A stretch of 64,000 nt of DNA from Streptomyces sp. NRRL F-5727 (lineage in GTDB: Bacteria > Actinomycetota > Actinomycetes > Streptomycetales > Streptomycetaceae), in the NCBI RefSeq assembly GCF_000719555.1, contig NZ_JOGX01000004.1, positions 248,001-312,000 on the forward strand, given 5' to 3'. The notes beneath the pieces were generated by a model that saw only the letters and a program-made list of their open reading frames with translations, searched no databases and was not told where the DNA came from. Positions 18,264 through 48,100 of the stretch are shown here, piece by piece (within the stretch, counting starts at the first letter, position 1; the number at the start of each line of letters is the position of its first letter). Both the position numbers and the translations under genes were made by a program.

Positions 18264-18360
18264 AGGCCGCTCACCCGTACGGATATCCTGGTCCCGGTAC
18301 ATCACGCGGTCCGTCCGGGCAGCCGCCCGCTCCCGGACCGAGCAGATGAAGGGGGCCCAC

Positions 18361-19392
18361 GTGGCCGAGCAGACGACGAGGGCGCGTCCGACCCTGGAGG
18401 CCGTCGCGGCCCTCGCCGGAGTGTCCCGGGCGACGGCCTCCCGGGTCGTCAACGGCGGCGCCGGGGTGCGCCCCCCGCTGGTCGAGAAGGTCCGGCAGGC
18501 GGTCGACGCGCTCGGGTACGTGCCGAACCTGGCGGCCCGCACCCTGGTCACCCGGCGGAACGGCGCCGTGGCCGTGGTCATCGCCGAGCCGGAGTTCCGG
18601 ATCTTCTCCGACCCCTTCTTCCAGGAGCAGGTGCGCGGCATCAGCCGTGAACTGACCGCCCACGACTCGCAGTTGGTGCTGCTCTGGGTGGAGAGCCCGG
18701 GCGACTACGACCGGATCGCCCGCTATCTCGCCGGCGGGCACGTCGACGGCGCCCTCGCCTTCTCCCTGCACGACGAGGACGAGCTGGCGGCGGTGCTGCG
18801 CCGGGCGAAGGTGCCGACGGTGCTGGGCGGGCGGCCGACGGACGGGATCGGCCAGGACATGCCGTACGTGGACGCCGACAACCGCGGCGGGGCCCGCGAG
18901 GCCGTCCGGCTCCTGGTCGGCCGGGGCTGCCGCACGGTCGGGCACCTCGCCGGGCCGCGCGACCAGACCTCGGCGGTGGACCGCGCCGAGGGCTGGCGCG
19001 ACGCGCTCGGGGAGCCGGATGCGGACCTGCTGTGTCAGGGCGACTTCACGGCGGAGAGCGGCGCCCGGGCGATGGCCGAGCTGCTCGTCCGGCGGCCGGA
19101 CGTGGACGGGGTGTTCGCCGCCAACGACCTGATGGCCTCGGGTGCGCTGCGGGTGCTGCGGGAGCGGGGGCTGCGGGTGCCGGAGGATGTGGCCGTGGTC
19201 GGTTTCGACGACGTGGCGTCGATCGCCGAGCGCACGGAGCCGCCGCTGACGACGGTCCGGCAGGACATCGAGGGCATGGGCCGGCTGATGGTCCGGCTGC
19301 TGATGCGACTGCTGAACGACCACGGGTCCGGGGCGCCCGCCCCGGACCCGCTGATCACGCCGACGACGCTGGTGCGCCGGGCGTCGGCCTAG
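18361..19392 (+). CDS. LacI-family repressor of the beta-glucan regulon
   Basis: A 343-residue DNA-binding repressor. The N-terminal HTH reads TLEAVAALAGVSRATASRVVNGG, followed by the hinge (YVPNLAARTLVTRR) that inserts into the central CG of the operator. A periplasmic-binding-protein-like sensor domain (about 60-340) follows. The GTG at 18361 is chosen because AAGGGGG lies 5 bp upstream; the ATG 15 bp earlier lacks a site. CebR-like repressors respond to imported oligosaccharides; here the inducer is inferred to be a beta-1,3-gluco-oligosaccharide because the linked genes encode GH81, an importer and GH1. It converges on the glucanase gene with only 7 bp between stops. Confidence 0.93.
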   Translation: MAEQTTRARPTLEAVAALAGVSRATASRVVNGGAGVRPPLVEKVRQAVDALGYVPNLAARTLVTRRNGAVAVVIAEPEFRIFSDPFFQEQVRGISRELTAHDSQLVLLWVESPGDYDRIARYLAGGHVDGALAFSLHDEDELAAVLRRAKVPTVLGGRPTDGIGQDMPYVDADNRGGAREAVRLLVGRGCRTVGHLAGPRDQTSAVDRAEGWRDALGEPDADLLCQGDFTAESGARAMAELLVRRPDVDGVFAANDLMASGALRVLRERGLRVPEDVAVVGFDDVASIAERTEPPLTTVRQDIEGMGRLMVRLLMRLLNDHGSGAPAPDPLITPTTLVRRASA

Positions 19393-19399
19393 CCTCCGC

Positions 19400-22198
19400 T
19401 CAGTCGAAGGGGATGACCACGACCGAGTCGGCCGTCCCCGTCCTGACCGTGGACGGGCCGTTGCCGATGGCGCTCCACAGTTCCACGCGGACGGTGCCGC
19501 CGCGCAGGTCGCCGAGGGTGCCGGTGGCGGACTTCAGGCCGCGGGTCTGGTCGTAGCGCTCCCAGCCGGTTACCGGGTCGGTGGCGAAGTAGTGGTACGT
19601 CTCGGTGCGTTCGAAGCTGCCGTCGCCGGTCAGGTCGTAGCTGACCCGGACCTGCTGGCCGAGGCCGACGGTGGTGCCCGCGTCCACCGCGAGGCGGAAG
19701 GCGGTGGCGGCGCCCGGGGTCAGGGTGCCGGTGACGTTCCGCGCCTCGTAGACGAGCGGCTGGTACGGGGTGCCGTCGTGGTTGGCGCCGCCGGCGGAGG
19801 CGATGGTGTCGCTGCCGGCGGTGGTGTCGGTCGCGGTGGTCAGCTGGCCGCCGCTCTTGAGCCGGAAGGTGTCGCCGGTGCTCGGCTCGGGGCAGGCCGG
19901 TCCGCCGGGCTGGCCGCAGGGGATGGTGCCGGTGCCCTTGCCGGTGGCGGTGGAACGGGCCGGTACGGTCAGGGACTTGCCGTCGGAGAAGGTGACGGTG
20001 ACCGGGGCGGAGCCGTGGTTGTGGGCGGCGTAGGTCCGCTCGGTGCCCTTCAGGAAGACGGCCGAGGTGGGGATCGAGCCGGTGACGGTCGCGTCGGGGG
20101 CGCCGAGCGCGTCCAGCGTGGTCAGCCAGTGGTAGGTGTGGGCGCGGGACTCGCCGGCCTCGGGGGTGTAGTTCCCGCCGACCGCGTCGAAGCGGCCCTT
20201 GGCGCGGGCCGGCTCGGCGAGCGACTCGAACTCCCAGAGAATGTCGCGCCATTCGACGGCGGGGCCGCCGTTCTCCCGCTCCATCTCGGCCAGGTTGCGC
20301 CGGATGGCGCCCGGGTAGGCGCCCATGTGCAACGCGTTGCCGGAGGTCACCGGGAGGGTGTTGATGCCGTGGATCTCCTCGGGGTTGGCGGTCCACCAGG
20401 TGGAGTAGGCGCCGCCGCTGCCCCAGACCATGCCGACGGTGTCGTGGCCGAAGGAGCCGGGGAAGACCTGCTGGTCGGCGTCGAACCAGTACTGGCCGAT
20501 GGCGTCGGACTCGGTGGCGAGGAGGTAGCCGCCGAGGTCGCGCAGGGCGGTGTCGCCGGTGGCCGAGCCCCACAGCACGAGCGCGGCGCTCAGGTTGGTG
20601 GACTCGGAGGAGGACTCCTGGTTGTTGCCGGCGGCGAAGCCGGAGTGGCCGGAGGCCCAGCTGTGGCCGGCGTAGACGTCGAAGCCGCGCAGGAACGGGA
20701 AGGCCGTGTCGGTGCGGCTGGGGTTGGCGACGTCGCGGACCAGGGTCTTCACCATGCCGCCCCAGGCCGAGTCGGCGGCCCACGCCTGGTCGTACTGGGC
20801 GACGATCGCGGCGGCGTACACGTAGTAGCCGTAGTGGAAGTGGTGGTCGTTGAGCTCGGTGTCGCTGCCGTAGGAGGCCGGATAGCCGGTCAGGGTCTTC
20901 CAGGTGCGGTCGTACGAGAACTCGTTGGCGCCGCCGGCGGTGAACCAGTCCTGGAGCCGGCCCTTGAGCAGGCCGAGGAGCCGGTCGCGCAGGGCGGTGT
21001 CGCCGAGCTGCTCGGCGAGCGGCACGAGCTGGGCGAGCTTCCCGAGCGCCTTGCCGGTCCAGTACGTGTCGGTGGCGCCGGAGAACGGGTCCGCGGAGTT
21101 CACCACCTCGTTCAGGTACGTACGCAGCCGGGCCTGGTCCACCGCGCCGGAGGCGGGCAGCCCGGGCAGGACGGCGGCCTGCCTCCGGCTGGTGGTGAAG
21201 CTCCGGCTCTCGCGGACCTTCATGGTGCCGCGCGGGGAGACGTAGGTGTACGGGGTGAGGGCGTCCGTGGTGTTGAGCCACTGGTGGCGGTAGAGGGCCT
21301 GGAGGGTGCCGGTCTCGGTGCCCTCCTTCGCCTCGGTGGTGAGGGCGTAGGTGGCGTTGATCCTGCCGCCCGAGGACGACCAGGTGACGCGGGAGCCGGT
21401 GACGAAGCTGAAGGCGTACCTGCGGAAGGTGGCCAGCGCGTCGGTGGAGGGCAGGACGGCGACGGAGAAGTAGTCCTTGCCGCCGAGGCCGGCGGTCACC
21501 GTGGTGCCGGAGACGTTCCAGTCGGTGCCGGTGGGCGAGAAGAGGGCGTAGTGGTGGCCGGCGACGGTGATGCCGAGGACGTTGCCCTGGTCGGCGAAGA
21601 CGGTGGGGGTGGACGCCGTGGTGATGCGGGCGTCGCCGCCGGTGCCCTTGGCGTACACGAACGGCATGCCGTGGCCGATGGTGGTGCGCAGGGTGCGGGC
21701 GCCGTCGGACCAGAGGGGGGTGACGGTCCAGTCGGACCAGTCGTCGGCCTTGGTGTCGGGCGAGTTCAGGCCGGTGAGACCGAGGGTGAGGTCGGCCTTG
21801 TGGGCGAACTCGTACTGCCGCCCGTCGCCGACGATCGCGGGCGTGGTGGGGTAGCCGATCTGGAGGCCGCCGGCGACGGCCTGGTAGGTGAGCGGGTGCC
21901 CGTACATGGGGGTGGAGTACGGGTTGTCGCCGTAGCGCTGGAAGGCGAGCGAGGACCACCAGTCGTTGGTGGGAACGGGCCGGTCCTTGGCGGCGGCGGT
22001 CACCTTGGGGGTGACGGGGGTGCCGGTGTTGGTGGTGGGGCCGGAGGTCCCGGCGGGGCGGGTGTCCGAGTACCCGCCGGCGCCCACGGGGACGGTGGCG
22101 GCGGAGGCGGGACCGGCGGCGGCCGGTACGAGACCGGCGGCGGCCAGGGCGGCGGTGAGGACCAGCGACGCGGCCGGTCGGGAGCGGGGAGCTGACAC
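19400..22198 (-). CDS. Secreted endo-beta-1,3-glucanase, family GH81
   Basis: A 932-residue secreted enzyme that should cleave laminarin, curdlan or fungal wall beta-1,3-glucan. A signal peptide (1-34, ending GPASA) precedes the catalytic region, whose GH81 signatures are PVPTNDWWSSLAFQ near the start, LNDHHFHYGYYVYAAA carrying the proposed catalytic Asp, and the acidic NNQESSSEST motif. After about residue 690 come a short beta-domain, then a C-terminal module from about 775 (GDTFRLKSGGQL to VELWSAIGNG) resembling a beta-glucan-binding CBM56. GTG at 22198 is chosen because GAGGTG lies 6 bp upstream. Operator B lies over the expected start of transcription. Confidence 0.93.
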   Translation of the reverse strand: MSAPRSRPAASLVLTAALAAAGLVPAAAGPASAATVPVGAGGYSDTRPAGTSGPTTNTGTPVTPKVTAAAKDRPVPTNDWWSSLAFQRYGDNPYSTPMYGHPLTYQAVAGGLQIGYPTTPAIVGDGRQYEFAHKADLTLGLTGLNSPDTKADDWSDWTVTPLWSDGARTLRTTIGHGMPFVYAKGTGGDARITTASTPTVFADQGNVLGITVAGHHYALFSPTGTDWNVSGTTVTAGLGGKDYFSVAVLPSTDALATFRRYAFSFVTGSRVTWSSSGGRINATYALTTEAKEGTETGTLQALYRHQWLNTTDALTPYTYVSPRGTMKVRESRSFTTSRRQAAVLPGLPASGAVDQARLRTYLNEVVNSADPFSGATDTYWTGKALGKLAQLVPLAEQLGDTALRDRLLGLLKGRLQDWFTAGGANEFSYDRTWKTLTGYPASYGSDTELNDHHFHYGYYVYAAAIVAQYDQAWAADSAWGGMVKTLVRDVANPSRTDTAFPFLRGFDVYAGHSWASGHSGFAAGNNQESSSESTNLSAALVLWGSATGDTALRDLGGYLLATESDAIGQYWFDADQQVFPGSFGHDTVGMVWGSGGAYSTWWTANPEEIHGINTLPVTSGNALHMGAYPGAIRRNLAEMERENGGPAVEWRDILWEFESLAEPARAKGRFDAVGGNYTPEAGESRAHTYHWLTTLDALGAPDATVTGSIPTSAVFLKGTERTYAAHNHGSAPVTVTFSDGKSLTVPARSTATGKGTGTIPCGQPGGPACPEPSTGDTFRLKSGGQLTTATDTTAGSDTIASAGGANHDGTPYQPLVYEARNVTGTLTPGAATAFRLAVDAGTTVGLGQQVRVSYDLTGDGSFERTETYHYFATDPVTGWERYDQTRGLKSATGTLGDLRGGTVRVELWSAIGNGPSTVRTGTADSVVVIPFD

Positions 22199-22269
22199 GT
22201 ACAGCACCTCGTTGGCTCGAAGGGGGTTCGTGGGGGTTCACGGGTTTCGTCCGTCGGCTCGACGGCTCC

Positions 22270-22283
22270 TGAGAGCGCTCTCA
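22270..22283. promoter_or_regulatory. LacI operator B (TGAGAGCGCTCTCA), upstream of the glucanase gene
   Basis: A 14-bp perfect palindrome, 72 bp before the glucanase start and 9 bp downstream of a good -10 box on the minus strand, so a bound repressor would block RNA polymerase at the transcription start. Confidence 0.88.
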
Positions 22284-22292
22284 GCAGTGCGC

Positions 22293-22322
22293 AACGTAAA
22301 ACTCCCGAAACCTGAGCGTCAA
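22293..22322 (-). promoter_or_regulatory. Predicted glucanase promoter
   Basis: Read on the minus strand: TTGACG (22322-22317), an 18-bp spacer, then TACGTT (22298-22293). This fits the housekeeping-sigma pattern, and operator B follows directly. The binding-protein promoter shows the same spacing to its own operator. Confidence 0.65.
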
Positions 22323-22399
22323 GAGACGGGACGCGAAGCGGTGTTGGGGCGACGGCTCCGTAGGAACCGTTCGATTCGGAGCCGTTACGCCTTCGAGTC

Positions 22400-22429
22400 T
22401 TGACGGGAACGGGAGAGTCGGGGCACGCT
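22400..22429 (+). promoter_or_regulatory. Predicted promoter of the binding-protein gene
   Basis: TTGACG (22400-22405), an 18-bp spacer and CACGCT (22424-22429), with operator C beginning 11 bp after the -10 box. The -35 is strong and the -10 is one base off TAnnnT. The geometry mirrors the divergent glucanase promoter in the same 339-bp intergenic region. Confidence 0.55.
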
Positions 22430-22439
22430 CCAGACCGTT

Positions 22440-22457
22440 CTTGAGAGCGCTCTCAAG
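22440..22457. promoter_or_regulatory. LacI operator C (CTTGAGAGCGCTCTCAAG), upstream of the importer operon
   Basis: An 18-bp perfect palindrome, the longest of the three sites, 80 bp before the binding-protein start. It shares the 14-bp TGAGAGCGCTCTCA with operator B and the 12-bp core with operator A. Confidence 0.9.
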
Positions 22458-22537
22458 CGTCCCTCCGGTCTCCGGGAGGACCCGGAGCCGTCCCTCGCCT
22501 CTCCCCCGATCCGTCCCGACGCCAAGGGAGCCCGTCC

Positions 22538-23842
22538 ATGCCCATCACCCGAGCCGCCACCCAGGCCGCCCTCCGCCTCGGAGCGGTCGCGCTCGCCGGT
22601 TCCCTGCTCGCCGCCTGCGGATCCGGCTCCTCCGGCACCGCCTCCGACAAGCCGGGCGGCGAGGTCACGATCACCGTCGACCTCTTCGGCTCCTTCGGCT
22701 ACAAGGAGGCCGGGCTCTACGCCGAGTACGAGAAGCTCCACCCCGGCGTCACCATCAAGCAGACCGACACCGAGGACGAGGCCGACTACTGGAAGTCGCT
22801 CCAGACCCGGCTCGCCGGCGGCGGCGGCCTCGCCGACGTCCAGGGCATCGAGGTCGGCCGGATCGCCTCCGTCACCCAGCAGCAGGCCGACCGCTTCGAG
22901 GACCTGCGGAAGTACGGTGCCGACGGGCTCAAGAGCCAGTTCGCCGACGCCAAGTGGGCCGCCGCCACCGGGAAGAACGGCGAGGTCCTCGGCCTCGGCA
23001 CCGACGTCGGCCCCGAGGCGATGTGCTACCGCACCGACCTCTTCGAGCAGGCCGGACTCCCCACCGACCGGGCCGAACTGGCCAAGCGCTGGTCCACCTG
23101 GGACGGCTACCTGGAGCTCGGCAAGCAGTACAAGGCCAAGGCGCCCGCCAAGAGCGCCTGGCTCGACAGCGTCGGCAGCCTCTTCTCGATCATGATCGGC
23201 CAGGAGAAGGAGCGCTACTACGACGCCTCCGGCGCCCTGATCTGGGAGACCAACCCGGCCCTCAAGACCGCCTGGGAGACCTCCGTCGAGGCGAGCGGCG
23301 CCGGCCTCAGCGCCAAGCTCGACCAGTGGTCCCCGCAGTGGAACCAGGCGTTCGCCGCCGGCTCCTTCGCCACCATCCCCTGCCCCGCCTGGATGCTCGG
23401 CTACATCAAGGGCCAGGCCGGCGAGTCCGGCAAGGGCAAGTGGGACATCGCCGCGCTGCCCGGCGGCGCCGGCAACTGGGGCGGCTCGTACCTCGCGGTG
23501 CCGCGCGCCGCGCAGCACAAGAAGGAGGCGTACGAGCTGATCAAGTGGCTCACCGCGCCCGAGCAGCAGGCCAAGATCTTCGCCAAGCAGGGCAACTTCC
23601 CCTCCTCGACCGGCGCCATCGCCGAGGTCGCGGACACCACGGACCCGTACTTCTCCGGCGCGCCGATCGGAAAGATCTTCGGCGACGCGGCCAAGGCGGC
23701 CCCGGTCCAGGTCCTCGGCATCCACGACCAGAACATCAACCAGCAGATCACCAACGCGCTGAGCGAGGTCGAGCGCAAGGGCCTCGCCCCCGAGAAGGCG
23801 TGGGAGAACGCGAAGAAGGGCGTCGCGAACACCCTCGGCTGA
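22538..23842 (+). CDS. Oligosaccharide ABC transporter substrate-binding lipoprotein (CebE-like)
   Basis: A 434-residue lipoprotein that should capture beta-gluco-oligosaccharides at the cell surface. The signal peptide ends in lipobox LLAAC (Cys near residue 27) and a Gly/Ser linker. The mature part has the family 1 solute-binding layout: EVTITVDLFGSFGYKEAGL, ADVQGIEVGRIASV, the CYRTDLFEQAGLP hinge region, and late YELIKWLTAPEQQAKIF. Several Trp and Phe residues suit sugar stacking. The permeases of the system do not follow directly: a 1.1-kb repeat-rich non-coding spacer intervenes. Confidence 0.92.
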   Translation: MPITRAATQAALRLGAVALAGSLLAACGSGSSGTASDKPGGEVTITVDLFGSFGYKEAGLYAEYEKLHPGVTIKQTDTEDEADYWKSLQTRLAGGGGLADVQGIEVGRIASVTQQQADRFEDLRKYGADGLKSQFADAKWAAATGKNGEVLGLGTDVGPEAMCYRTDLFEQAGLPTDRAELAKRWSTWDGYLELGKQYKAKAPAKSAWLDSVGSLFSIMIGQEKERYYDASGALIWETNPALKTAWETSVEASGAGLSAKLDQWSPQWNQAFAAGSFATIPCPAWMLGYIKGQAGESGKGKWDIAALPGGAGNWGGSYLAVPRAAQHKKEAYELIKWLTAPEQQAKIFAKQGNFPSSTGAIAEVADTTDPYFSGAPIGKIFGDAAKAAPVQVLGIHDQNINQQITNALSEVERKGLAPEKAWENAKKGVANTLG

Positions 23843-23893
23843 CCCCGGCGCGCCTCTGGCCCGGCGTGCCTGACCCGATGTCTCCGGCCCTGC

Positions 23894-24359
23894 GGGACCC
23901 GGTCCGTCGGACCCCGCCAGGTGGGACCCGGTCCGACGGACTCCAGCCCTGCGGGACCCGTCCGGACGGACCCCGGCCGGGGGGACCCGGTTCGACGGAC
24001 CCCCGGCGGGGCCCGGCCGAAGGACTCCGGCCCTGCGGGACCCGGTCCCGGCGGACCGCGCCAAGGTGGGACCCGGTCCGACGGACTCCAGCCCTGGGGC
24101 CTGTCCGTTGGACTCCCGCCCTGCGGTCCCACCGGGAGGGACCCCGGCCGGCGGGACCCGGTTCAACGGACTCCCACCGGCGGGACCCGGCCCGACGGGG
24201 CCCCGACCAGCCGGACCCGGTCCGAAGGACTCCAGCCCTACGGGGCCGGCCTGATGGACTCCGGCCCTGCGGGGCCAGGTCCGTCGGACCCCGCCAGGTG
24301 GGACCCGGTCCGAAGGACTCCAGCCCTACGGGGCCGGACCGACGGACTCCGGCTCGGCA
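23894..24359. repeat. Array of about sixteen 27-31-bp GC-rich direct repeats inside the importer operon
   Basis: Units begin at 23894, 23923, 23953, 23982, 24009, 24037, 24068, 24096, 24125, 24153, 24182, 24212, 24242, 24271, 24300 and 24330; the mean period is 29.1 bp. The best units start GGGACCCGGTCCG, then A/T-CGGAC and a variable tail (AGCCCTGC or CGCCAGGT). Each has two overlapping dyads, GGACC-C-GGTCC and GTCCG-N-CGGAC, which share the middle arm. Units 1-2, 6-7 and 14-15 match as pairs, so duplication of a 59-bp block is likely. The uneven period, not a multiple of three, argues against coding. There are no unique spacers, so it is not a CRISPR. Confidence 0.9.
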
Positions 24360-24943
24360 GGTTCCGGCTCGGGCGGGCCCCGCGCTGGCGGGCCGTCGGG
24401 ACGGATCCCTCCGGCGCGGGCCCGGCCTGGGCGGGGCCGATCCGGTCGGCCCTGGACCGGGCGGGCCTCGCTCCGGATGGCCCGGACCGGACCGACCGCG
24501 ACCGGGTGCGGCACCGGCGAGAACCGAGCCGGTGACGTCGGGCCGTACGGAACAGCCCGGTGACCCCGGCCTGTTCGGTGCCCCGTCCGGGCCGGGCACC
24601 GGTCCGGTGCCCGGCCCGCCCCGGGCCCTGACCGATCGACCCGACCTGGCCAGGGGACCCGACCCGATCAGCCCAGCCCGGCCGGGGCCTGGCCCGGTCT
24701 ATCCGGCCCGGCAGAGCCGCCGACCCGGGTGGTCCCGGGCCTGGGCGGGGCCGAGCCGGCTCCGCCCCGCCCGGGGCGACCGGAGCCCGCGGGCTGCGCC
24801 GACCCGGGCGCGCGGGCTCGCTCACCCGTCCCGGGACGGGCGCGCGCCGGCTCGCTCGTTCCGGCCGGGGCGGCTCCCCCCGCCCCGGCCACCCGCTCCA
24901 CCGCCTCACCCTCCTCCGTGACCGTCTCCCGAAGGGCCGCACC
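24360..24943 (+). other. GC-rich non-coding remainder of the operon spacer
   Basis: After the clear repeats come two or three decayed units (to about 24450), then some 490 bp of very GC-rich sequence with short fragments such as CCGGGCC and GGACCGG. All frames are open mainly because A+T is scarce; no ribosome binding site plus protein-like frame was found. The last 20 bp hold GAAGGG, the ribosome binding site of the first permease. Confidence 0.6.
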
Positions 24944-25891
24944 GTGACCCTCACCGCACCGGCGAAAGCCGTCACCGTCCCGCGCCAGCCGGTTCTCCGG
25001 CGGGCGTGGCGCGCGGTGTCGCCGTATACGTACGTCGCCCCGTTCTTCACCCTCTTCGCCGCCTTCGGGCTCTTCCCGCTGGTCTACACGGCGTACGTCT
25101 CCCTCCACCGGGTCGAGCTCCAGGACCCCGGCGCCATGGAGTGGCGCGGGCTCGGCAACTACACCGCCCTGTTCGGCGACGAGTTCTTCTGGACCGCGCT
25201 GCGCAACACCTTCACCATCGGCGTGCTCTCGACCGTCCCCCAGCTGGTGATGGCCCTGGCGCTGGCGCATCTGCTCAACCACCGGCTGCGCGGCCGGACC
25301 TTCCTGCGCACCGCGATGCTGCTGCCGTACGCCACCTCGGTCGCCGCCGCCACCCTCGTCTTCGCCCAGCTCTTCGGCCGCGACTTCGGGCTCTTCAACT
25401 ACGTCCTCGGCCTGGTCGGCGTCGGTCCGATCGACTGGCAGTCGGGCACCCTGAGCTCCCAGATCGCCGTCTCCACCATCGTCGTGTGGCGGTGGACCGG
25501 CTACAACGCGCTCATCTACCTCGCCGGCATGCAGTCCATCCCGTCCGAGCTGTACGAGGCGGCCGAGATGGACGGCGCCTCCCGGTGGCGGCAGTTCTTC
25601 CACGTGACGCTGCCGGGGCTGCGGCCGACCATCCTCTTCACGGTCGTCGTGTCGACGATCGGCGCGACCCAGCTCTTCGGCGAGCCGCTGCTCTTCGAGG
25701 GCTCCATGTCGGGCGGCATCTCGCACCAGTACCAGACCCTCGGCCTGTACATGTACGAGCAGGGCTGGGGCTTCTTCCACCTGGGCCGGGCGGCCGCGAT
25801 CGCCTGGGTGATGTTCCTGCTGATCCTGGTGCTCGTCGGGGTCAACGCCCTGATCGCGCGCCGCCGTTCCCGCAAGGAGGCCGGCCGATGA
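24944..25891 (+). CDS. Oligosaccharide ABC transporter permease (CebF-like)
   Basis: A 315-residue inner-membrane permease with six helices, the first near 27-50 (YVAPFFTLFAAFGLFPLVYT). The EAA loop is EAAEMDGASRWRQFFHVTLPG. GTG at 24944 has GAAGGG upstream. It overlaps the next permease by 4 bp (ATGA). It pairs with the binding protein 1.1 kb upstream. No ATPase gene is present; an MsiK-type shared ATPase is inferred. Confidence 0.93.
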   Translation: MTLTAPAKAVTVPRQPVLRRAWRAVSPYTYVAPFFTLFAAFGLFPLVYTAYVSLHRVELQDPGAMEWRGLGNYTALFGDEFFWTALRNTFTIGVLSTVPQLVMALALAHLLNHRLRGRTFLRTAMLLPYATSVAAATLVFAQLFGRDFGLFNYVLGLVGVGPIDWQSGTLSSQIAVSTIVVWRWTGYNALIYLAGMQSIPSELYEAAEMDGASRWRQFFHVTLPGLRPTILFTVVVSTIGATQLFGEPLLFEGSMSGGISHQYQTLGLYMYEQGWGFFHLGRAAAIAWVMFLLILVLVGVNALIARRRSRKEAGR

Positions 25892-26790
25892 CCGCGCTCG
25901 CCGACCCGCCCGCCCCGGTCGTCTCCCCCACGGGACGGCCCCCCGTCCGCCGCCGCCGGTCGGGCGCCGGACGGACCCTGAAGGCCGGACCACTCGCGTA
26001 CGCCGTGCTGATCCTGGCGGTCCTCGTCTCGGCCTTCCCGTTCTACTGGACCATCGTCGCCGCCAGCCGCACCAACGCCGACCTGGCCCAGGTGCCCCCG
26101 TCGCTGGTGCCCGGCCCCCACCTCATCCGGAACTTCGAGGCCGTCCTCGCCGAGGCCGACATCGGCAAGGCACTGCTCAACTCCCTGATCGTGTCCGGCT
26201 CGATCACGGTGGGCACGGTGCTCTGCTGCACCCTCGCCGGGTTCGCCTTCGCCAAGCTCCGCTTCCGGGGCCGGGGCGCGCTGCTCGCGGTCACCGTGGG
26301 CACGATGATGATCCCGCCGCAGCTCGGCGTCATCCCGCTCTTCATGCTGATCGCGGAGCTCCAGTGGGTGAACCAGCTCCAGTCGGTGATCCTGCCCGGC
26401 CTCGTCTCCGCCTTCGGCGTGTTCTTCATGCGCCAGTACCTGGTGCAGTCGCTCCCCGACGAGCTGATCGAGGCGGCAAGGGTGGACGGCGCCTCGACGG
26501 CCCGGATCTTCTGGTCGATCGTCGTGCCGATCGCCCGCCCCGGCATGGCCGTGCTCGGCCTGCTCACCTTCATGGCCGCCTGGAACGACTTCTTCTGGCC
26601 GATCGTGGCGCTCTCCTCGCAGGAGCCGACCGTCCAGGTGGCGCTCCGCCAGCTCGGCGGCGGATACGTCCACGACCAGTCGGTGATCATGGCCGGCACC
26701 CTGCTGGGCACGCTGCCCGTGCTGCTGGTCTTCGGCCTGCTGGGCCGCCAGATCGTCGGCGGCATCATGCAGGGCGCGGTCAAGGGCTGA
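25888..26790 (+). CDS. Oligosaccharide ABC transporter permease (CebG-like)
   Basis: A 300-residue permease, partner of the preceding gene. A basic N-terminus (to about residue 35) precedes six helices; the EAA loop is EAARVDGASTARIFWS, followed by FMAAWNDFFWPIVAL. AAGGAGG lies 8 bp before the ATG, inside the end of the previous gene. The C-terminus IVGGIMQGAVKG is typical for MalG/CebG proteins. Confidence 0.94.
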   Translation: MTALADPPAPVVSPTGRPPVRRRRSGAGRTLKAGPLAYAVLILAVLVSAFPFYWTIVAASRTNADLAQVPPSLVPGPHLIRNFEAVLAEADIGKALLNSLIVSGSITVGTVLCCTLAGFAFAKLRFRGRGALLAVTVGTMMIPPQLGVIPLFMLIAELQWVNQLQSVILPGLVSAFGVFFMRQYLVQSLPDELIEAARVDGASTARIFWSIVVPIARPGMAVLGLLTFMAAWNDFFWPIVALSSQEPTVQVALRQLGGGYVHDQSVIMAGTLLGTLPVLLVFGLLGRQIVGGIMQGAVKG

Positions 26791-26862: not shown

Positions 26863-28263
26863 ATGACCGCTGTCGACGCCCGCCCCGACTCCTCCGCGAC
26901 CCTCCGCTTCCCGGAGGGTTTCCGCTGGGGCACCGCCACCGCCGCGTACCAGATCGAGGGCGCGGCCACGGAGGACGGCCGGACGCCGTCCATCTGGGAC
27001 ACCTTCAGCCGGACGCCGGGCAAGGTCCGCAACGGCGACACCGGCGACATCGCCGCCGACCACTACCACCGGGTCCGCGAGGACGTGGCCCTGATGCGCG
27101 AACTGGGTGTGACGGACTACCGGTTCTCGGTGGCCTGGCCGCGTGTCCAGCCGACCGGGCGCGGACCGGCGCTCCAGAAGGGCCTGGACTTCTACCGGCG
27201 GCTCTGCGACGAGCTGCGGGAGGCGGGCATCCGGCCGGTGGCGACGCTGTACCACTGGGACCTGCCGCAGGAGCTGGAGGACGCGGGCGGCTGGCCGCGC
27301 CGCGAGACCGCCGCGCGGTTCGCCGAGTACGCCGGGATCGTCGCCGACGGACTCGGCGACCGGGTCGCGACCTGGACGACGCTGAACGAGCCGTGGTGCG
27401 CCGCCTTCCTCGGGTACGGCAACGGCGTGCACGCCCCGGGCCGGACGGACGACGCGGCCGCGCTGCGCGCCGCGCACCATCTGAACCTGGCGCACGGCTG
27501 GGCGGTGGCGGCGCTGCGGGAGTCGCTGCCGGCCGGCACGGAGGTCTCGCTGACGCTCAACCTGCATGTGGTGCGGTCGCTGACGGAGTCGGCGGAGGAC
27601 CGGGACGCGGCACGGCGGATCGACGCGGTGGCGAACCGGATCTTCCTGGACCCGGTCTTCCGGGGCCGGCTGCCGGAGGACCTGGTGCGGGACACGGCCG
27701 GCGTGACGGACTGGGCGTTCGTACGGGACGGGGACCTGGCGGCGATCGCGGCGCCGATCGACTCGCTGGGCCTGAACTACTACTCGCCGACGGTGGTCGC
27801 GGCGGGCTCCTCGGAGTCGCCGTCGCCGTGGGCGGGCGCGGAGCGGCACGTGCGGTTCCTGCCCGCGCCGGGGCCCCGGACGGCGATGGACTGGCCGGTG
27901 GACGCGGACGGGCTGTACGAGCTGCTGGTGCGGCTGCGGGACGAGCTGCCGCACGTGCCGCTGGTGATCACCGAGAACGGGGCCGCGTACGACGACTACG
28001 CGGACCCGTCCGGGCAGGTGCGCGACCCGGAGCGGGTCGCGTATCTGCACGGGCATCTGGCGGCGGTGCGGCGGGCCGTCGAGGACGGCGCGGACGTGCG
28101 CGGCTACTTCCTGTGGTCGCTCCTGGACAACTTCGAGTGGGCCTTCGGGTACAGCAAGAGGTTCGGGATCGTGCACGTGGACTTCGCCAGCCAGCGGCGG
28201 ACGCTCAAGGACAGCGCCCGCTGGTACGCGGACGTGATCGCGCGCGGCGGGCTGCCGTCCTGA
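26863..28263 (+). CDS. Beta-glucosidase, family GH1
   Basis: A 466-residue enzyme without a signal peptide, so it should hydrolyse imported gluco-oligosaccharides to glucose in the cytoplasm. GH1 signatures: [15 protein letters not shown] near residue 17, the acid/base TLNEPW near 175 and the nucleophile [10 protein letters not shown] near 370. TGGAG lies 10 bp before the ATG. It ends the LacI-controlled operon, 72 bp after the second permease. Expected product chain: GH81 outside, importer, then GH1 inside. Confidence 0.95.
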
Positions 28264-47587: not shown

Positions 47588-48100
47588 ATGAACCACGCGG
47601 ACGGCACCGCACCGATCTACGCCCAGCTCATACGGGAGCGGGGGGACGTTCCCGGTGACGTGCGCCAGACCGCGGAGGATGTGCTGCGGGACCTGAGCCG
47701 GTACATCAAGCTTCCCCCGGCGGCGCCGCAGCAGCCGCCGATGGGCGTCGGTGCGCCGGTGGGCATGCCGGGGATGCAGGGGATGCAGGGGATGCCCGGC
47801 CAGCCGGGGATGCAGGGCCAGCCCGGCATGCAGGGCCGGCCGGGGATGCAGGGTCAGCCCGGTATGGGGCAGCCGGGTCAGCCGGGGATGCAGGGCGGTC
47901 CGGGAATGGCGGGCGGCCAGCCGGGGCCGCAGGGCCTTCCGGGTGTGCCCGGCCAGCCTGTGCCCGGGAACCCCGGGTCGGCGGGTCCCGCCGGTCTGCC
48001 GGGTCCGGCGGGCATGCAGGGCGCCGGTCCGGTCCCCGGCCAGGGCGGCCCGGGCGGGCACGCCGGCATCGTGGCGATGCGGTCGCTGCCGCAGGGCTGA
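47588..48100 (+). CDS. Collagen-like repeat protein
   Basis: A 170-residue protein without a signal peptide. Residues 1-42 form a short helical head (PIYAQLIRERGDVPGDVRQT). From about 59 to 158 the sequence is Gly-X-Y-like, first Met/Gln-rich (GMPGMQGMQGMPGQPGMQGQ) and later Pro-rich, with a few breaks. A short tail (HAGIVAMRSLPQG) follows. Bacterial collagen-like proteins form triple helices, often at the surface; with no signal here the site is unclear. No neighbour suggests a role. Confidence 0.8.
   Translation: MNHADGTAPIYAQLIRERGDVPGDVRQTAEDVLRDLSRYIKLPPAAPQQPPMGVGAPVGMPGMQGMQGMPGQPGMQGQPGMQGRPGMQGQPGMGQPGQPGMQGGPGMAGGQPGPQGLPGVPGQPVPGNPGSAGPAGLPGPAGMQGAGPVPGQGGPGGHAGIVAMRSLPQG

Follow-up and report, generated by a model that had tools for sequence, protein, structure and literature searches.

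How a single operon can yield its binding protein in excess has long been asked, and beyond E. coli and Clostridia few cases have been worked out. The malE-malF intercistronic REP of E. coli forms palindromic RNA that was proposed to keep the binding-protein mRNA in excess. The locus described here resembles it in having palindromic structure between binding-protein and permease genes, but differs in its GC-rich hairpins, in an array expansion, and in the lack of a dispersed REP family (the genome search, with 40 of 109 candidates scored, showed no other place comparable to the array). In cellulolytic Clostridia, internal terminators in the form of stem-loops behind binding-protein genes are reported to reduce transcription further downstream and so to increase the binding-protein mRNA ratio (PMC9045158). 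A stem-loop downstream of the first gene is common to both systems (at or below -25 kcal/mol in 65 of 71 spacers here), and the long GC-rich stem and U-poor tail are also alike; however, a U-rich tract after the stem is missing here, where TTT occurs within 12 nt after the stem in 0 of 71 hairpins. The present case also differs from the clostridial terminators in belonging to a high-GC actinobacterium and in carrying repeat arrays. Closer in lineage, a Term-seq study of S. griseus assigns 441 of 2,115 3' ends to a 'structured non-motif' class, defined by folding below -25 kcal/mol with no U-rich motif, and finds 637 3' ends, of all classes, within clusters of transcription units that have no start downstream (PMC8914203). 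Most hairpins examined here are like this class in folding below -25 kcal/mol and in having no T-rich motif, as evaluated in windows of 45 nt rather than the 40 nt of that paper. Bacterial satellites are likewise described as tandem repeats that are intergenic in some cases (PMC6749651), whereas the arrays considered here return in several species at the same junction of one operon, where a hairpin recurs as well. The array is also locus-specific, as in a minisatellite (VNTR). A search of titles and abstract beginnings, covering few subscription papers, found no paper dealing with repeat arrays at this junction or with hairpins there, and passages found in two ceb papers (PMC4890002, PMC9953190) do not mention such a hairpin.

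The window analysed in this study is a stretch of 64,000 nucleotides (G000:C4:248001-312000) from a Streptomyces-clade genome, placed there by the match to its own genome and by the rows of the operon tree. On its forward strand, a sugar-binding protein gene (22538-23842; cebE-like, PF13416 and PF01547, third-position GC 0.98) is followed by two permease genes (24944-25891, cebF-like, PF00528; and 25888-26790, cebG-like, a UgpE-like family match below the family cut-off) and by a GH1 beta-glucosidase gene (26863-28263, TIGR03356 above cut-off). Upstream lies an open reading frame on the same strand (18346-19392) whose start bears a DNA-binding motif that we take to be of the LacI type, making it a probable local regulator. 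Divergent from the operon is a GH81 glycoside hydrolase gene (19400-22207, reverse strand, PF17652 E 4e-61) of the endo-beta-1,3-glucanase type. Given this enzyme type, the importer may take up oligosaccharides of beta-1,3-glucan instead of cellobiose, despite the cebEFG-bglC-like genes. The operator-like palindrome TGAGAGCGCTCTCA occurs as exact matches at 22270-22283 and 22442-22455; both copies precede the binding-protein gene, and the array contains no copy.

The binding-protein gene is separated from its permeases by an untranslated spacer of 1101 bp (23843-24943, forward strand, 81% GC) that lies between genes and has no codon periodicity. A scan of 23800-25000 revealed no sigma-70 promoter and no U-tailed terminator, and no Rfam family exceeded its gathering score in 22300-25500 (two matches, both far below). 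The preliminary description of this DNA had reported tandem repeats with a 29-bp period in the spacer, and TRF, autocorrelation and unit alignment all recover them at 23882-24358 (forward strand) as approximately 16 units of 25-31 bp (mean 29). TRF gives a period of 29, 16.4 copies, a score of 346, 68% matches and 8% indels, and the self-identity at lag 29 (0.546) exceeds the shuffle maximum of 0.438, with none of 1000 dinucleotide shuffles reaching it over lags 10-124. The reported recurrence of paired units also holds, since a 59-bp period is called as well (TRF score 337) and the block at 23919 recurs at 24064 and 24296 with 97% and 94% identity, respectively. Other parts of the description were too generous. 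The gap is indeed 1.1 kb, but the array does not fill it, covering 477 of 1101 bp (43%), with the remaining spacer weakly repetitive by TRF and autocorrelation. Similarly, the pattern GGACC-C-GGTCC-G-N-CGGAC, said to characterize every good unit, is present as a core but is exact in just 3 of 16 units, with at most one mismatch in 6 and at most three in 11. The reported array is therefore real but somewhat overstated, and the interpretation offered is of the right kind at the junction but unproven as regards the array. A coding reading of the array was rejected on the grounds of a period that is not a multiple of three and the absence of codon periodicity (GC at the three codon positions is flat at 0.79, 0.77 and 0.81, versus 0.64, 0.50 and 0.98 in the binding-protein gene), and a conserved protein encoded in the spacer is likewise not supported, with lengths in relatives that vary from 56 bp up. 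Descent of the unit from the junction hairpin (see below) was also considered and rejected: among nine hairpins aligned locally, the best score was reached by 6 of 300 shuffles, which is unconvincing after nine tests.

No comparable second place for the array was found in the same genome, where the next best match had E 2e-4 over approximately 45 bases (40 of 109 candidates scored). Among 295 genomes of the genus (own included), the array gave short, weak matches in three others (L090-L092), with no binding-protein or permease match within the respective 3-kb loci. Searching with the spacer from the array onward in 392 genus genomes (own included, overlapping the first set) gave matches in three others, two through the permease-proximal tail at this operon and one elsewhere; two candidates per genome were scored in both searches. 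When the spacers of the relatives described below were aligned to the array, 5 of 80, complete or cut (L014, L017, L024, L037 and L080, the last from S. griseus), beat all 60 shuffles, where about 1.3 would be expected. The strongest likeness was to the spacer of L017, from the same clade, with a local alignment score of 57 against a shuffle maximum of 50, and this spacer may be a remote relative of the window array. Comparison across relatives, which the preliminary description had proposed, thus yielded no clear copy of the array and one weak likeness.

The nearest relative, S. omiyaensis (L011), has a spacer of 128 bp, making the window spacer about eight times as long. The window spacer matches that of L011 over its last 135 bp alone (spacer positions 967-1101 against 4-128 in L011; 76% identity by blastn), and the local score of this tail alignment is 115 compared to a maximum of 52 in 100 shuffles. 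Loose blastn among spacers matched everywhere by composition and was used for this tail match only. The DNA missing from the L011 spacer, approximately 0.97 kb (23843-24808, forward strand), adjoins the binding-protein stop codon and precedes the hairpin shared with L011. We infer that this DNA was gained in the window lineage because most neighbours have short spacers (128-191 bp in three of the five nearest relatives); it is also possible that an older long spacer was instead lost in L009, L011 and L012. The 29-bp array, which makes up about half of the extra DNA, most likely grew locally. One of these neighbours, L009, is recorded as Microtetraspora glauca NRRL B-3735 but groups among Streptomyces on the operon tree with a permease 98% identical to that of the window, and its name is probably wrong.

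A permease search found 394 relatives, from which the best 80 were kept. The spacer was complete in 73 of these; L010, L030, L041, L050, L066, L075 and L085, in which the contig begins in or next to the spacer, were left out of the length and fold counts. Spacer length in the 73 relatives ranged from 56 to 1073 bp, with a GC content of 0.73-0.90 before trimming; ends were trimmed to the start codon by a ribosome-site pattern in 22 of 74 spacers and counted to the permease match in the others. Contig ends fell at most 396 bp upstream of the permease match in 7 of 80 loci, with six ends elsewhere in the fetched 4-kb flanks, and because they cluster at the spacer, the missing spacers are presumably hard to assemble and perhaps long. 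In the seven loci named above, the junction spacer itself appears to have broken the assembly. The eight spacers of at least 400 bp require six changes on the tree of the flanking genes, which was built from flanking coding pieces of 74 rows by a quick search with SH-aLRT support only and is weakly resolved near the window.

Four of these eight long spacers contain arrays with a TRF score of at least 80 (the window, L013, L014 and L071), L017 and L046 contain weak arrays only, and none is listed for L034 and L053. The units in L013 and L014 are differing 18-bp sequences, in 4.1 and 9.8 copies, starting at spacer positions 84 and 75. The 9.8 copies in L014 (spacer positions 75-251) match at 98%, as in a very recent expansion. 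Overall, arrays with a score of at least 80 occurred in 18 of 74 spacers, compared to 0 of 74 regions of 300 bp preceding the binding-protein gene and, further downstream, 2 of 71 gaps in front of the glucosidase gene, a contrast that may be inflated by the higher GC content of the spacers (0.81 versus 0.64 and 0.71). Copy number is compared here between species, each represented by one genome. A further 69 loci (L124-L192) were measured for length alone, including a distant permease clade (64-73% identity) whose gaps of 49-245 bp to the start of the permease match are truly shorter; the odd rows in this set are L126 (a gap of 0, with an apparent frameshift), L167 (which contains N), L145 (without a binding-protein gene) and L190 (without a permease match).

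Most relatives retain a strong hairpin at this junction. Folding was examined in 71 spacers including that of the window, with the three of 74 shorter than 70 nt, which have almost no fold, left out; the rows are related rather than independent. The best 45-nt window averaged -33.3 kcal/mol with a mean z of -2.94, and z was below -2 in 49 of 71 spacers relative to dinucleotide shuffles. Coding controls rarely reached this level (1 of 71 at the end of the binding-protein gene and 0-2 of 71 in six further coding segments), apart from the permease start, where 34 of 71 fell below -2 against dinucleotide shuffles but 6 of 71 against synonymous-codon shuffles, so the fold there comes mostly from the protein and its codon use. 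The hairpin appears dispensable, given the three very short spacers and the 6 of 71 that lack a hairpin at -25 kcal/mol, and in L013 and L014, both relatives with long spacers, the best hairpins stay at the level of chance (z 0.58 and 0.08). Its arm sequences vary among clades (e.g., L039, L023, L022 and L083). In the window, the presumed local form of the junction hairpin has an 11-bp stem (24863-24890, forward strand; -28.2 kcal/mol in 24857-24900, z -3.87), and its 28-mer is identical in L010, L011 and L012 and present in no other of the 80 loci. Two stronger hairpins lie upstream on the same strand, one of -39.4 kcal/mol at 24581-24625 (45-nt window fold) and the strongest of the spacer, -41.2 kcal/mol, at 24733-24777 (45-nt window fold, z -3.16 from 20 shuffles).

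Covariation was assessed in 17 of 23 rows caught by an outer-arm pattern, which missed L078, L065, L071, L043, L044 and L076, together with three rows of other clades that share those outer arms; 17 of the 20 sequences were distinct. In this set, 93.3% of cells pair, compared to at most 62% when the partner is slid. The eight outer stem pairs are nearly invariant by design of the selection, while the six inner pairs, in which 86 of 102 cells pair, include all four pairs that change on both sides and lie outside the selection pattern. Among the 17 distinct sequences, 4 of 14 stem pairs had changed on both sides, a count that averages 1.8 in shuffles and was reached by 11 of 500, and the 10 cells changed on both sides compare with 3.7 in shuffles and were reached by none of 500. 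Hairpins after the binding-protein gene may be general in the genome of the window. It contains 34 binding-protein matches, 30 with loci, and 10 of the 30 have a downstream permease match, including this locus (L117) and the uncertain L111. By estimated gap length, three gaps of 86-172 nt (L093, L108 and L112) hold hairpins of -31.9 to -38.2 kcal/mol, while five gaps of at most 65 nt (three folded, two too short) are without such hairpins; the 1101-bp gap is the longest measured between a binding-protein and a permease gene in this genome.

The spacer of the window is the most structured of the 74 examined, with a whole-spacer fold z of -7.5 (30 shuffles) where 24 of 74 fall below -2. The number of its non-overlapping windows with -25 kcal/mol or lower is 12, compared to a mean of 8.6 and a maximum of 11 in 25 shuffles; the corresponding counts and shuffle means are 12 versus 8.7 in L013, 9 versus 6.3 in L014 and 7 versus 5.1 in L017. 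With pairing limited to a span of 60, the region 23882-24392 is predicted to form 13 local hairpins, ten with 7-21 pairs. Nine of the 13 span 38-58 nt and join neighbouring units, which departs from the suggestion that the middle arm of each unit switches between its flanking arms. The GGACC and GGTCC arms of a unit are separated by one base, so a local hairpin with all five pairs is impossible. The real array folded better than most column-permuted arrays, its value being reached by 1 and 0 of 200 at span 100 and by 7 and 5 of 200 at span 60. Reordering whole units reached it in 6 of 200 (span 100) and 28 of 200 (span 60), and reordering unit pairs in 9 of 200 and 51 of 200, respectively; the duplicated blocks are not independent and can inflate the results of these tests. 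Tandem copies of the consensus unit showed no greater hairpin tendency than did shuffled units in tandem (three versions, with p 0.52, 0.75 and 0.29). Because the consensus unit performs no better than shuffled ones and the duplicated blocks are not independent, the pairing changes in the array, where covariation is modest, are no more than suggestive, and the predicted folds hint weakly that the array itself may be selected for mRNA structure. The idea that this region shapes the mRNA thus has indirect support at the junction, where a strong hairpin is kept in most relatives, and is weak for the array, whose idealised unit is no more hairpin-prone than shuffled units.

Between the junction hairpin and the permease ribosome-binding site, directly before the latter, lies a C-rich, G-poor tract (24893-24925, forward strand, (C-G)/(C+G) 0.58). 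Over the 60 nt leading up to the ribosome-binding site, the excess of C over G was greater than 0.3 in 54 of 71 spacers compared to 14 of 71 leaders of the binding-protein gene, which were placed approximately. Counted from the best hairpin onward, the excess was present in 46 of 66, and the value for the strongest hairpin of the window was 0.19. Such a tract would fit Rho loading and a ribosome-binding site that is kept open equally well.

Taken together, we consider the chances about even that partial termination combined with a protected hairpin 3' end yields excess binding protein at this beta-glucoside import operon, with the array pushing the ratio further. The junction mRNA would carry a U-less, GC-rich hairpin followed by the C-rich, G-poor stretch before the permease start, and part of transcription would end in or after the junction region, either Rho- or hairpin-dependently. 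By analogy with S. griseus and Clostridia, a short binding-protein mRNA would then have the hairpin as its protected 3' end, and the binding protein would be made in excess over the permease. The array, by folding into many extra hairpins and lengthening the untranslated RNA, would push the ratio further in the same direction, with permease lower still. We infer the termination, the 3'-end protection, the excess and the array effect from these parallels and from the predicted folds. A somewhat different reading, to which we give rather less than an even chance, accepts a functional junction hairpin but regards the array as a neutral minisatellite, a tolerated slippage expansion in a GC-rich spacer with no effect of its own. 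The lack of a second copy in the genome and of an array match at the operon in the genus searches is in keeping with neutrality, as are a unit that is not specially hairpin-prone and matches nine junction hairpins no better than chance, the presence of different repeats or none at the same place in other spacers, and the concentration of arrays in spacers (18 of 74 versus 0 of 74 upstream and 2 of 71 downstream). Against it, the array outfolds its own column-shuffled versions and the spacer is the most structured of 74.

A little less probable again is that the junction acts solely as a stabiliser of the malE-malF type, in which full-length mRNA would be cleaved and hairpins would stop 3'-5' decay without any termination. 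The position, the stable U-tract-free hairpins and the covariation would all fit, but the C-rich, G-poor tract past the hairpin suits termination as well. Far less probable is a role of the array in binding a regulatory or nucleoid protein at its repeated DNA sites, an option raised in the preliminary description. Regular spacing and the 59-bp super-period would be natural in such an array; however, 29 bp corresponds to a non-integral number of helical turns, no clear copy of the unit was found in relatives, and the operator-like palindromes stand upstream of the binding-protein gene, leaving none inside the array. The same description had also offered a selfish dispersed repeat, and the palindromic units do recall a REP/BIME-like element, but this is the hardest option to credit, since the genome search gave no comparable second copy (the best other place being the short E 2e-4 match among the 40 of 109 candidates scored) and the genus genomes searched gave no array match at the operon.

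If a hairpin spacer does set the ratio at this junction, the spacers may behave as an evolvable rheostat, in which the hairpin fold persists as its sequence turns over, and repeated, independent minisatellite expansions in different species (with units of 29, 18, 40 and 44 bp) change the hairpin number and thereby retune the balance of binding protein to permease. We regard this extension as doubtful; if true, hairpin number would retune an importer ratio over short evolutionary times. The spacers at this one junction in a high-GC genus form a natural series of 56 to 1101 bp, some having hairpins and others none and with arrays of various kinds, which makes the role of hairpin number testable by simple swaps. 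Tandem repeats in the window also occur away from this junction, the top array outside the spacer being an 18-bp period in 10.2 copies at 47767-47958 (TRF score 121).
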